Position numbers and translations under genes: made by a program. A DNA stretch of 36,399 nt from an uncultured Prochlorococcus sp. (GTDB taxonomy: Bacteria; Cyanobacteriota; Cyanobacteriia; PCC-6307; Cyanobiaceae), in assembly GCF_902616385.1 (NCBI RefSeq), contig NZ_CACMSM010000014.1:1-36399 (forward strand). The letters are read 5' to 3'. Below, in pieces: positions 12,091 to 30,469 of the stretch; the first letter of the stretch is position 1, and each line of letters begins with the position of its first letter. The notes beneath the pieces are model-generated. The model searched no databases. It was not told the origin of the DNA and was given only the letters and a program-made list of their open reading frames with translations.

Positions 12091-12109
12091 AAAAAAAAAA
12101 AAAAAAAAA
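12091..12109. repeat. 19-base poly(A)/poly(T) tract
   Basis: Nineteen consecutive A on the given strand (T on the coding strand of lptB) lie between the DUF309 gene and lptB, 36 bp upstream of the lptB ATG. It is the longest homopolymer I noticed in the window. It may act as an UP-like element, a weak terminator tail or a slippage site; the exact count could also be a sequencing artefact. Confidence 0.9.
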
Positions 12110-12156
12110 TGAAATAGAAAATAATAATTTTTTTGAAGATAAAGAAATATTCATTT

Positions 12157-12528
12157 TCATAAAAGAGGTTTCAAAAAAGGCTTATCGTTCTCATTCAATA
12201 GCTCTTTATACTGTAATTTCCTCAATAAATCTTCCAAACATTTGCAGAAGGATTCAAGATCAATTCCTAAATTAACCTTTGTTCTTGTTTTTATTCTACC
12301 TAAACCCTCTCCAAGCAAAATAGTAGCTCCATTTAAATTTCCTTTGCTTAGGTGAAACTGAGAAACAGATACTTGTAAAATTCCCTGGATAACTTGTCTT
12401 TCGTCACCATCAACGGAATTCCATATTTCTTCAAAAGCATCATGAGCCTCATACCAATCATGCTTATTAAAAAGATTTAAAGCCGTAAAAAGAGAATCCT
12501 TAAAATTTTTTGTACTTTCTTGGTTCAT
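12157..12528 (-). CDS. DUF309 family protein
   Basis: This is a 123-residue helical protein. The segment FNKHDWYEAHDAFEEIWN (about residues 19-36), followed by RQVIQGILQVSVSQFHLSKGN, is the diagnostic core of DUF309, a family of small all-helical proteins found in bacteria and plants. Its conserved His-Asp-x-x-E-x-H-D-x-x-E/W pattern suggests a buried polar or metal-like site, but no biochemical role is established to my knowledge. It starts 11 bp after typA on the same strand, so the two are almost certainly co-transcribed, and precedes the LptB-like gene by 101 bp. A function cannot be assigned from context. Confidence 0.88.
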   Translation of the reverse strand: MNQESTKNFKDSLFTALNLFNKHDWYEAHDAFEEIWNSVDGDERQVIQGILQVSVSQFHLSKGNLNGATILLGEGLGRIKTRTKVNLGIDLESFCKCLEDLLRKLQYKELLNENDKPFLKPLL

Positions 12529-23873: not shown

Positions 23874-25028
23874 TCAACGTATCTTATTCAAAGTTATTTC
23901 TTTTTGCCTCCAATATGTCTCTTTTTTAATCAAACGCTGAAATTGATTTTTTAGCTCATATATTTTGTTCCTTTGAATAGAAAGATTTAAATTTTCAAAC
24001 TCTAACTCAACAGTAGATATATTGAAGAAAATAATGCAAGGAAAATCATTACCGATTAATGATGAGCGATTTAAGTTTAATTCGAAATTAATAACAAAAG
24101 GATATGGATGTTTTATCATAAAATTTTTGCCTACTAAGTAATCAAAGGTATCTTTAGATATCATCTTTTTTATTAGATTTGCCTTGTATAATTCTTGATT
24201 AATATTATATGAAAGATTCAATAGTAAATTTTCCAATGACTTGTCTATTAAATCAAAATCATTAAAAATCTGATTTTTGGGTAAATTATCCATTTGATTG
24301 ATATTTTCTTTTTCTTGATATCTTGTTTTTTCCACCTTTTCCTCTCCTATTAATTCAAGTAAGGAGGAAATAAATTGTTTTTCAACTCCTAAATTTTCAA
24401 AAATATTGTTTTTAGATAAATAATTATTATTTTGGTTTTTATCTAAATCAAGTGATACGAATCTCTCAAAATTTTGAGCTCGATAATATTCAGAAGTATT
24501 TGATAAGTCTTCAGTAATCTCGAACTGAATTGGTTCTTTTAATTGAAAACCATCTTCATATTGAAATTTTTCTTTTTGATGATCATTTATTTTGGTGGAA
24601 CTATCAAAAATAGTAAAATTAATTTCCTTATTCATATTTTCTTCAATTTCATTTATCTTTAATTGTTCTACTGTTAAAAAGGGCAAATTCGTAAATATTA
24701 ATTTACTTATTTTTTTTTCAAAAAGACTATAGGATTTATTTTCATTTAAGAAATTATTATTAATTATAGGGTAACTATATATTTGATTAAGGCCTTTTTC
24801 TACAGAGATGAGAAGTAGATCTCTTACTAGATTAAGATAAAGTTCATATTCCCTATAGATATTTCTAGTTAATATTCTTTTTTGTATATCTGCTCTCTCT
24901 AATTGAGAATTAATTTTATCAGTATCTATGTAATTATTGAAATTATTCAAATCATTCAAGTGACTATTTTGTTTGCATTGATGCGACCTCTTCAGCAAAG
25001 TCCATCTGATTTTTTTCGATACCTTCAC
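23874..25028 (-). CDS. Asn-rich protein of unknown function between tsf and recG
   Basis: I do not recognise this protein. Read from the ATG at 25028 it has 384 residues, but the first 22 codons overlap the end of tsf in another frame. A TTG at 24959-24957, just past the tsf stop, would give 361 residues and is an equally good start. The product is rich in Asn, Ile, Lys, Glu and Leu, and mostly helical by eye. Residues 70-330 look low in complexity, and a more structured C-terminal part contains [20 protein letters not shown] and a mixed-charge helix [19 protein letters not shown]. No signal peptide, membrane segment or catalytic motif is seen. It is probably co-transcribed with rpsB-tsf and recG. 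Confidence 0.7.
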
Positions 25029-25620
25029 CCAATGTATATCGTGTAAAGCGTCTTACTTTGATATTTTCCCCAATTTTTGCAGCTGCTTGTTTAACAAGGT
25101 CCTCAACTGTTAGAGAACTATCTTTAATGTAGGGTTGTGAAAGCAAAACAAGCTCATTAAGTCTTTTTGCTATTCTCCCTTCAACTATTTTTTCTTTAAT
25201 TTGTTCTGGTTTTCCAGATAAATCATCCCTACCCATTTCAATCTGCTTTTCTTTTTCCACAACATCTTCAGGTATTTCGTCAATTGATACATACTCAACA
25301 TTCGGGCATGCTGCTACTTGCATTGAGACATCCTTCAACAGAGATTGGAATATATCGCCTCTAGCAACGAAATCAGTTTCACAATTTAACTCTAGTAAAA
25401 CTCCGACTCTTGATCCAGTATGAATATAACTACCAATTGAACCTTCGGCCGCTACTCTTCCCGATTTCTTTTCAGCACTAGCTATTCCTTTCTTCCTTAA
25501 CCATTCCAAAGCTTTATCTAGATTTCCTTCAGTTTCGTTAAGTGCTTTTTTGCAGTCCATCATTCCTGCACCAGTTTTGTCTCTAAGATCTTTTACAAGT
25601 TTTGCTGTAATGTTTCCCAT
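24964..25620 (-). CDS. tsf: Elongation factor Ts
   Basis: This is the nucleotide-exchange factor for EF-Tu. It has 218 residues, the short form found in cyanobacteria and many bacteria. The N-terminal UBA-like domain holds [19 protein letters not shown] (9-27), and the core starts with the TDFVAR motif (82-87) that contacts EF-Tu. The rest of the dimerisation region is present in the compact form. It follows rpsB by 44 bp, the near-universal rpsB-tsf order, and probably shares its control through the rpsB leader. Its 3' end may overlap the next gene if that gene starts at its first ATG. Confidence 0.98.
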
Positions 25621-25664: not shown

Positions 25665-26369
25665 TTAATTTTTTCTTTCGGCATTAGAGCCCTTTCTACC
25701 CTCATTTATGGCATCTGCAAGTCTTCCTAAAATAAGTTGCACAGATCTAACGGCATCATCGTTACAGGGAATTGGAACTTCACACAAATCCGGATCGCAA
25801 TTTGTATCCAACATTGATACTAATGAGATATCTAATTTTCTAGCTTCTAATACTGCATTAGATTCTCTTCTCTGATCAACCAATACAACTACATCTGGTA
25901 ATCTTCTCATACCCTTAAGTCCACCTAAGTATTTTTGCAATCTTTCAAGTTCTCTCCTTAATACTGCAGCTTCTTTTTTAGGCCTCATTGCTATTGAACC
26001 ACTACTATCCATTCTTTCTAGATCCTTTAATCTTTCAATCCTAGCTTTCATTGTTGTCCAATTAGTCAACATCCCTCCAAGCCATCTTTGATTTACATAT
26101 GCAGCTCCACAGCGTGTAGCTTCCTGAGCTACTACATCTGATGCTTGTTTTTTTGTACCGACAAATAGGAAACGTTTACCGCTTTTTGCTGCGTTTCTAG
26201 TCCATTTATATGCATTGTTCATACACAATGCTGTTTTAACAAGATCAATAATATGCACTCCATTTCTCGCGCAATATATATACTTAGACATCTTGGGATT
26301 CCAACGTCTAGTTTGATGCCCAAAATGAGCACCAGCTTCCATCATTTCTGATAGTGATACAACAGCCAT
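25665..26369 (-). CDS. rpsB: 30S ribosomal protein S2
   Basis: This ribosomal protein lies at the 30S head-body junction and is needed for S1 binding in many bacteria. It has 234 residues. The signature [19 protein letters not shown] (9-27) and later [13 protein letters not shown] and [10 protein letters not shown] are classic for S2, as is [19 protein letters not shown]. The ATG at 26369 gives the standard N-terminus. It has an unusual 5' leader with two interleaved helices (see the leader entry), and the nearest strong Shine-Dalgarno, GGAGG, sits 25 nt before the ATG, too far for normal use unless RNA folding brings it close. tsf follows after 44 bp. Confidence 0.98.
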
Positions 26370-26446
26370 AATTTAATAAAAGGTTTCGGGTTAGCCTCCA
26401 TCTGACGGGGAATTAACATTAATAATTCACCCGAAACTGTCAGATG
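26370..26446 (-). promoter_or_regulatory. Structured rpsB 5' leader, pseudoknot-like, candidate S2 autoregulatory element
   Basis: Read 5' to 3' on the minus strand: helix 1 is CATCTGAC (26446-26439) pairing with GTCAGATG (26406-26399), 8 bp. Helix 2 is GTTTCGGGT (26437-26429) pairing with ACCCGAAAC (26391-26383), 9 bp. Their halves alternate 1-2-1-2, the order of an H-type pseudoknot, with a 1-nt first loop. Inside helix 1 a hairpin GAATTA (26428-26423), loop TTAATGT, TAATTC (26415-26410) extends by CGGG with CCCG past a one-base bulge and competes with helix 2. A GGAGG at 26399-26395 lies between the helix halves. Autoregulation of rpsB-tsf by S2 is known in gamma-proteobacteria; here it is inference from position and structure. 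Confidence 0.7.
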
Positions 26447-26465
26447 TGTGAAATTTATTTCAATT

Positions 26466-26471
26466 ATTCTA
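26466..26471 (-). promoter_or_regulatory. Possible -10 hexamer for rpsB-tsf
   Basis: TAGAAT on the minus strand lies about 20 nt upstream of the structured leader and would place the transcript start near 26459, leaving a leader of about 90 nt that contains both helices. No good -35 is seen at the right distance, so this is a weak call. Confidence 0.25.
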
Positions 26472-28382: not shown

Positions 28383-29555
28383 TTAAAAAATTTCGGCAGG
28401 ATCAGCTTCAACTAATTTACGCATCGCAACAGCAGCGGATCCCATACACATAACTAAAACTAAAACGAAAATTAAAATTGTTTTTTCTGCATCCATTATT
28501 ATTGGGAGTTTAGTAGAACTTCTTATAACTGAGTAAAGTATTTGACCAGAGAAATAAGCAGGTAAATAACCAAACAATGCCAACAAAAACCCCTCTCTAG
28601 CTACAACAAAGAAAAGGGACTTAATTCTATACCCCATTGCCAATAGGGTGGCGTACTCTGGAAGGTGATCTGTAACGTCACTATAAAGAATTTGATAAAC
28701 AACCACACACCCTACAACGAAACCCATTAATGCTCCCAAACTAAATATGAAACCTATTGCAGTACTATTTTTCCAATAATTCTTCTCAAATTCTATAAAT
28801 TGATTTTTTGTAAGAACCCTAACATCATTTGGGAGTGAGTTATTTAATATCCTTGAAATCAATTCAGGATCAGATCCTTTTTTTAGCTTTACTAAACCAA
28901 TTTCTATACTGCCAGGAGGATTAGCAGGGAAAAGTCTTAAGAAGGTTTCTCGACTAGTTATCAAATTACCATCTGCACCAAAAGATGGTCCCAACTCCAC
29001 AAGGCCCTCAACAATTACTCTTTTTCCAGCAACCTCAGTCTCAACTTTTTTTTCAGATAAGAACCATTCTTCAATCGGTCCAAATTCAGGTCTAGATAAT
29101 TTGTCAAAAAGAACTCTTGATGGATTTCTCAATTTATAAGCTTTCTTTGAGAACCCCTCATCTAAAAGAAGTGAATCGGAGGGATTAAAACCTAATGCAA
29201 GTATTGATCTAGTTTTAAGATTTTCGGGATTTCTCCAAAGTAAATAATTAAGATTAACGGGAGCAGTTTTTTCAACATCTTCTACTGCGAGAGTCTGAAT
29301 TAATCTTCTTTTTGGGAATCCACTCATGCTTATAGAACTTTTTGATCTGGGACTTATCAAAACAAGATCGGCATCCAGAAGTTTATGAATAGTTACGCTC
29401 GTATCAAATAAACCATCTCTAAAACCTAATTGCATAAACATCAAAATCCCTGCAAAACTTATTCCAGCTATTGCAACAGCTAGCCTTAATGGTTGCCTAG
29501 TTAATAACAACCAAGCTAATGGTATTTTTCTGAATTTTAAAAAAGAAAAACTCAT
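28383..29555 (-). CDS. devC: DevC-type ABC transporter permease (FtsX-like)
   Basis: This membrane component has 390 residues. It starts with a basic amphipathic segment and PLAWLLLTRQPLRLAVAIAG, the DevC-family beginning, then a first transmembrane helix (about 22-42). A long extracytoplasmic domain (about 50-260) is followed by three more helices near 268-292, 320-340 and 355-380, giving the four-helix MacB/FtsX layout. The start codon overlaps the devB stop as TAATG, so translation is coupled. With devB and devA it forms a complete inner-membrane exporter; a TolC-like outer channel would be encoded elsewhere. Its substrate cannot be told. Confidence 0.93.
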   Translation of the reverse strand: MSFSFLKFRKIPLAWLLLTRQPLRLAVAIAGISFAGILMFMQLGFRDGLFDTSVTIHKLLDADLVLISPRSKSSISMSGFPKRRLIQTLAVEDVEKTAPVNLNYLLWRNPENLKTRSILALGFNPSDSLLLDEGFSKKAYKLRNPSRVLFDKLSRPEFGPIEEWFLSEKKVETEVAGKRVIVEGLVELGPSFGADGNLITSRETFLRLFPANPPGSIEIGLVKLKKGSDPELISRILNNSLPNDVRVLTKNQFIEFEKNYWKNSTAIGFIFSLGALMGFVVGCVVVYQILYSDVTDHLPEYATLLAMGYRIKSLFFVVAREGFLLALFGYLPAYFSGQILYSVIRSSTKLPIIMDAEKTILIFVLVLVMCMGSAAVAMRKLVEADPAEIF

Positions 29556-30468
29556 TAGGGAATAAATTTTGCAATCACTTTCATTCCTGCATAGTTTTGA
29601 ACGATATCTATAGAATCTTGATCTAGTTTTACTAGTACCTCGATAATTCGTGAATCAGCATCCCCTGTTGGATCAGTCGATAGAACTTTTCTTTGTTTTA
29701 CCTGAGGACTAATCCTAATAACCTCTCCTTTAAGATTTTTTTGGAAACCTCCATTCTCACTGGTCAATTCAACATTCTGAGAGATAAAGACTCTATCAAT
29801 GTCAGATTCATAAACCTCTATCAAAGCTTCCATTTTTTGACTAGAACCAATCTCCAAAATTCCTTCATTTTGAGGCCTTTCACCAACTCTCGTGTTTATT
29901 CCAAGGATAAAACCATCGATTGGACTCCTTAATCTTGAATTAAATAGATCTATCTTGATATTTTTTTGATCTCCGATTAGATTTATTTTCTGTTTTTGCA
30001 ATTTTAATAATTCATCTTTTCTCTGTGAAAACTCTACAAAAGAATATGCATCTTTGCTCAAAGCTTGCTCATACCTTTGAATTTGATTTTTCTTTAGGGT
30101 AATTTCTTCGTTAATAGTATTAATTAGATTTTCGTTTCTTTCAAGATCAGCAATTAATTTTTCTCCATTTTCAAAGATTGCCAGGATATCACCTTTTTTT
30201 ACAAAATCTCCTTCATTTACTAAAATTTCGACAATTCGAGGGGAAGAGCCAAACTGACTTATTGGAGCTGCCAATTGTCTAATCTCTCCCGAAGGAGAAA
30301 GTTGACCAAGTGCTGCAACAGCTGTAATAGGAGGTATGAAATCTGAAGTTATTTCCTCTTTAAATTTTGAACTAGATTTATTATTTCCAGAACAGGAAAT
30401 AACACCAAGAGATATTGGTGTAAATAATAAAAAATAAATAAATAAATTTTTTAATATTTTTGATTTCA

Positions 30469-30469
<1 letters not shown>
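29555..30469 (-). CDS. devB: DevB-type membrane fusion protein, probable lipoprotein
   Basis: This periplasmic adaptor (HlyD/MacA family) has 304 residues and links an inner-membrane ABC exporter to an outer-membrane channel. The N-terminus is a signal sequence ending in a lipobox-like VISC with C26, so it is probably a lipoprotein. The biotinyl-lipoyl half-motif VNEGDFVKKGDILAIFE comes at about residue 87, then a coiled-coil hairpin (about 105-170), the second lipoyl half LRSPIDGFILGINTRVGE, and a beta-barrel part with IVQNYAGMKVIAKF at the end. The ATG overlaps the pcyA stop as TAATG, and its stop overlaps devC in the same way. Confidence 0.92.

Follow-up and report, generated by a model that had tools for sequence, protein, structure and literature searches.

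A conserved pseudoknotted rpsB leader in picocyanobacteria: a candidate uS2-responsive form of the rpsB motif with a nine-pair knot and no Shine-Dalgarno sequence

The window analyzed here is the whole stretch of 36,399 nucleotides from an uncultured Prochlorococcus sp. (contig NZ_CACMSM010000014.1); its minus strand carries rpsB, encoding ribosomal protein uS2 (25665-26369, 234 aa; Pfam Ribosomal_S2, E 7.3e-91), and then tsf, encoding elongation factor Ts (24964-25620, 218 aa; Pfam EF_TS, E 1.3e-35). The 77-nt leader in front of rpsB, on the same strand, contains two perfect helices whose halves alternate in the order 5′1-5′2-3′1-3′2, that is, an H-type arrangement, as had been proposed in a preliminary description of this DNA; our search returned both helices at the same positions. 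Helix 1 (P1) has eight base pairs, 26446-26439 with 26406-26399 (5′ half CATCTGAC, 3′ half GTCAGATG; recognized by complementarity and covariation), and helix 2, the pseudoknot, has nine, 26437-26429 with 26391-26383 (5′ half GTTTCGGGT, 3′ half ACCCGAAAC; recognized by complementarity). Nested within them is P3 (26428-26410), an AT-rich hairpin of 6 bp that is variable and covarying in relatives, and these three are the only perfect helices of at least 6 bp in the leader. P3 is followed by CCC (26409-26407), which is able to pair with the GGG of the helix 2 5′ half as a competing extension of the hairpin. A conserved CACA (26450-26447), also present in E. coli, stands directly 5′ of helix 1, and a conserved GAGGCUA (26398-26392), which we read as motif residues rather than a Shine-Dalgarno (SD) sequence, lies 3′ of it. 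The GGAGG at 26399-26395 is 25 nt from the ATG (26369) with the 3′ half of helix 2 in between, again as first described; the last 13 nt before the start codon (26382-26370) are an A/U-rich spacer without an SD.

No helix pair of 8 + 9 bp in H-type order arose in 20,000 dinucleotide shuffles of the 77-nt leader, and a 6 + 6 bp pair arose in 672 of 20,000. A mechanical test for the H-type order responds twice more elsewhere in the window, to A/T runs at about 12101-12199 and within an ORF at about 30341-30439; the shape alone is therefore not unique, and the reality of the leader rests on its conservation in relatives. The second of these places holds a 10-bp inverted repeat (GTTATTTCCT / AGGAAATAAC, 30348-30403, within the ORF at 29555-30469), which probably helps the test to fire there. 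The ordinary minimum-energy fold of the leader, a nested fold unable to represent the pseudoknot, scores weakly (z -1.34; 20 of 200 shuffles fold as well or better).

We collected rpsB loci from Prochlorococcus genomes with a few Synechococcaceae (the best 80 of 582), from 300 genomes of the window's family (282 with rpsB; leaders were taken from a spread of genera), and from further genomes of the class and phylum. The family is called picocyanobacterial here on account of the Prochlorococcus genomes among its sampled relatives. Of the first 166 loci, which include the window twice, all have the motif except the incomplete L050 and L055; three others (L012, L070, and L111) were missed by the regular expression and proved intact on reading, so that no complete family leader examined lacks the motif before rpsB. 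This amounts to 162 distinct leaders in the family and 54 outside it: 54 of 57 class leaders could be anchored, all of them distinct, and the motif is visible in the remaining three (L219-L221, which also show GGAG, were missed by the start-codon pattern, and stay outside the counts). Another 27 family genomes, mostly of unsampled genera, gave 26 matches, the one miss (G179) also being without an rpsB match; the 25 loci L269-L293 all have GTTTCGGGT with ACCCGAAAC, except for a 3′ half of ACCCGGAAC in L269, and in L294, from the same genome as L198, the pattern caught the 3′ part only.

Our own cyanobacterial model (R1, built on the family) matches once in the window and nowhere else in the genome that contains it; a weak second match (E about 0.005) occurs in two other family genomes (G034 and G077). 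Searched against the phylum with strict filters, this family-built model matches 100 of 386 genomes, which is no census, and 57 of 58 family genomes among those listed. None of seven weak matches in other families of the class (G404, G413, G451, G497, G507, G590, and G594) lies at rpsB, nor does any of the six matches in other classes whose place could be compared with that of rpsB (G305, G330, G429, G438, G485, and G601), and R1 finds the motif in none of 12 rpsB leaders from another class of the phylum (L256-L267; L259, which sequence anchors had caught by chance, is excluded from the counts). Several of those twelve share GATAGGTT..CCCTAGTCC, GGATGRGAC, and GTTTAGCCCGTAGTACAA 5′ of AAAGGAG, words that may belong to a different or far-diverged rpsB leader.

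Helix 1 and P3 covary. In alignment A1 (70 leaders), five of the eight helix 1 pairs change on both sides with 97.5% of cells paired, and five of the six P3 pairs do so with 73% of cells paired. For a formal covariation test we anchored columns by sequence only, which aligned 211 of 218 leaders (90 distinct rows), and set them against 300 null alignments in which the inferred substitutions were redistributed over a tree; that this tree was built from the short aligned blocks themselves weakens the test. Anchors failed in L111, L213, L244, L249, L250, L254, and L255, which were left out. Helix 1 supplies the five highest-scoring of the 946 column pairs, with E values of 0, 0.35, 0.6, 0.98, and 2.9; a single pair is significant on its own (its score was never reached by the null), and the other four have E of 0.35-2.9.

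Upstream of the motif, a predicted extended -10 promoter element (TGCTAGAAT, 26474-26466) would place the transcription start near 26459. The element is conserved: in the 60 nt upstream, TGNTANNNT occurs in all 162 family leaders, where shuffling would give 10.3, and in 48 of the 54 from outside the family, where it would give 4.0. Its distance to the motif is mostly 12-20 nt, so the mRNA probably begins a little 5′ of helix 1. If transcription started downstream of 26437, the fold would be cut out of the transcript, but the promoter-like element makes this unlikely. A scan also listed an intrinsic terminator within the leader (a 7-bp stem with an A/T tail), which we rejected because its stem is an alternative pairing of helix 1 and helix 2 halves, its tail is not a U run, and rpsB comes next.

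The preliminary description regarded such a structure as undescribed in cyanobacteria. That claim fails, because Meyer et al. (2009) list Cyanobacteria among the carriers of an rpsB motif with a pseudoknot (PMC2704228), and because model searches match in both directions. The published motif has a long P1, a variable P3, and, in Cyanobacteria, a P2 that is absent or very short (PMC2704228). The window leader lies directly upstream of rpsB, its P1 is 8 bp long and covaries, its P3 is variable in an alignment that leaves no room for P2, and the strand before P3 is complementary to the extension of the P1 3′ strand in 70 of 70 sequences. The Rfam comparison that had been suggested for the leader gave a match to t44 (RF00127) at 26389-26468 over the full model, with a score below the cut-off (28.3 bits, E 2.5e-4; cut-off 44); the E. 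coli leader L167, as a positive control, scores 83.5 bits. In the other direction, R1 finds the E. coli rpsB leader in a 5.7-kb search (22.1 bits, E 7e-6). From these likenesses in sequence and pairing, the window leader is judged a member of the published rpsB motif / S2 leader family. The preliminary proposal is borne out in part: a pseudoknotted rpsB leader, conserved, covarying in helix 1, and homologous to the leader through which S2 reportedly acts in E. coli.

Standard Rfam annotation overlooks the picocyanobacterial leader. Among 145 genomes of the class t44 reaches its cut-off in none, though the filters of this search were strict enough to lose the window's own sub-threshold match as well. 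The Rfam entry RF01815 ('rpsB'), which we take from the shared name to be that of the 2009 motif, also matches none of the 145 at its cut-off of 40 bits; this says little, since the cut-off is reached in none of 14 control genomes either. Below the cut-off (E<=0.1) RF01815 matches 16 of the 145, none of them of the window's family, and the four matches that could be placed (G304, G559, G338, and G318) are directly upstream of rpsB. In short searches of individual leaders, six of 20 from outside the family match t44 or rpsB, all below cut-off, and none of 20 other family leaders has an Rfam match at E<=0.05. An Rfam scan of 5′ UTRs in the Prochlorococcus MED4 transcriptome is reported to have yielded no conserved element, in a set that may not have included the rpsB leader (PMC3898218).

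The family's leaders have a form of their own. The knot has 9 bp in 161 of 165 family leaders (162 of them distinct), 8 bp in one, and 10 bp in three; it ends 6-14 nt from the ATG, and GGAG, GAGG, or AGGA occurs in the last 20 nt before the start in none of the 165, with an SD likewise in none of the 26 further loci L269-L294. Outside the family, the knot has 7-8 bp in 42 of 54 leaders (six are shorter and six longer), and every leader but L225 (53 of 54) has a GGAG after it, the first base lying -3 to 4 nt from the knot end. In the deep-branching class member L249 the SD, AGGAG, shares its first bases with the knot (CTACGGGT/ACCCGTAG), whose formation could by itself mask the site.

We do not retain the GGAGG at 25 nt as the SD of rpsB, the role suggested for it at first. 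It is a motif residue: both E. coli and 43 of the 54 cyanobacterial leaders outside the family retain it, and their SD is a separate word further on (AGAGG in E. coli, GGAG in nearly all of the 43). In L278, L282, L287, L288, L293, L142, L148, and L158 it reads GGTGG with the helix 2 halves unchanged, and this difference in some family genera is a further sign that it is not used as an SD. Nor is the loss of the SD special to rpsB, since tsf and the window's ORFs largely lack one too: an SD was found at none of 136 tsf starts in the family versus six of 17 outside, and an SD-like 4-mer stands at -20 to -4 in one of 26 long ORFs of the window. Prochlorococcus is reported to initiate translation, in all likelihood, without depending on the SD (PMC5607370). 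A 9-bp knot near the ATG without an SD is apparently a new form within a known family, of which we found no description in the open-licence literature; an apparently regulated rpsB leader has been retained in genomes that have largely lost their SD sites.

We put at roughly 0.7 the probability that this is a picocyanobacterial S2 leader, through which uS2 exerts translational feedback on rpsB-tsf. Repression by uS2 would be expected here from homology to the E. coli leader, through which S2 is reported to repress rpsB-tsf (PMC10931766; PMC2704228) with the assistance of bS1 (PMC10931766). By the mechanism that we propose, uS2 in excess of the need of ribosome assembly would bind the leader fold (in E. 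coli together with bS1) and stabilize the 9-bp pseudoknot; the knot would block initiation at rpsB, and tsf output would drop as well. When free uS2 is scarce, the knot would open, perhaps to the GGG-CCC pairing, and ribosomes would bind the A/U-rich spacer without an SD. Initiation would be blocked because the 3′ strand of the knot (-22 to -14) ends 13 nt from the ATG, presumably within the space taken by the 30S subunit. This occlusion step is not carried over from E. coli, whose S2 operator reportedly does not include the ribosome-binding site (PMC10931766); in cyanobacteria, binding may lead to repression more directly. As the leader has no SD that could be masked, whatever repression occurs must target SD-independent initiation. 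It is possible, if somewhat doubtful, that the leader of picocyanobacteria has turned into an SD-independent switch: once the lineage had lost its SD sites, the knot would have grown to nine pairs and come to stand in the former place of the SD, and uS2 would block an SD-less, bS1-type initiation at the start codon itself, unlike the distant operator of E. coli. The leader is well suited to a clean test of the way in which a ribosomal protein might stop SD-independent initiation.

Conservation and covariation show that a structure is selected, not what binds it, and we found no experiment on a cyanobacterial rpsB leader in the literature searched; both points would suit a conserved leader that is not regulated at all, serves RNase protection of the 5′ end or ribosome standby or enhancement, and has no uS2 role in cyanobacteria. 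We consider this unlikely in view of the homology to an E. coli leader reported to answer to S2 and of the association with rpsB, where R1 has its one match in the genome and in the window.

The feedback reading leaves room for a second fold of the leader. The AT-rich hairpin had been said to exclude helix 2; the hairpin itself does not, as it ends one base short, and it is its GGG(26432-26430)-CCC(26409-26407) extension, formed in the nested minimum-energy fold, that competes with helix 2, because the GGG belongs to the helix 2 5′ half. The nested minimum fold takes two to five bases of the knot 5′ strand in 162 of 162 family leaders, so two folds compete; freeing the borrowed bases costs a median of 6.7 kcal/mol versus -13.0 for the knot duplex, with the knot loop cost excluded. 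Of the three pairs of this extension, two GG-CC pairs persist in all 70 sequences compared and the third in 66 of 70. Such regularity is what one would see if the GGG-CCC pairing formed first and a later swap to the pseudoknot, set by temperature, transcription speed, or uS2, were the regulatory step. We think this improbable: the knot already holds the GGG constant, which leaves no room for covariation in its pairing with CC, the energies omit the knot loop cost, and outside the family the cost of freeing the knot bases is lower (median 3.9), with no such pairing in two of 54 leaders.

In the reading that we prefer, helix 2 is the part that uS2 would stabilize. No helix 2 pair in alignment A1 changes on both sides, all nine pairs being formed in 70 of 70 leaders, and the sequence-anchored test of 946 column pairs found no significant covariation of helix 2 among cyanobacteria; helix 2 hardly varies, so the test has little power there. 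The covariation that the preliminary description called for is accordingly seen in helix 1 (the top five pairs, one of them significant), with nothing significant in helix 2. Among the leaders dropped from the test, three cyanobacterial ones carry compensatory double changes in helix 2: L244 and L250, which belong to one genus, have U-A in place of C-G, and L249 has A-U in place of U-A. E. coli has G-C at a helix 2 position that is C-G in cyanobacteria; in cyanobacteria outside the family, pairing is kept at the inner positions and the outer ones are free to vary. Conservation, free variation at the ends, and compensatory changes on deep branches and in E. coli all point to the predicted helix. 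It is very improbable that helix 2 does not form and that its halves are conserved separately for protein or 16S contacts, a reading that would suit the near lack of variation and of significant covariation within cyanobacteria, but one that is opposed by the nine pairs formed in 70 of 70 leaders, the free outer and paired inner positions, the compensatory changes just named, and the pseudoknot in the published motif (PMC2704228).

Set beside known systems, the window leader resembles the published rpsB motif in its site before rpsB, its P1, its variable P3, the absence of P2, and the same pseudoknot strands (PMC2704228); it differs in the knot, which is given five pairs outside Firmicutes (PMC2704228) and has nine in the window, at the start codon. 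With the E. coli leader and t44 it shares CACAC, P1, GUGGAGGC, and the knot-closing AACCC, aligned over the whole model, whereas E. coli has a 5-bp knot with 24 nt and a separate AGAGG before the ATG, and the window has 9 bp, 13 nt, and no SD. Other cyanobacterial rpsB leaders share P1, the knot core, and the promoter-like element with it, as well as the GGAGG in the 43 of 54 counted above; their knot, mostly of 7-8 bp, abuts an (A)GGAG, whereas that of the window's family has 9 bp and stands before a start without an SD.
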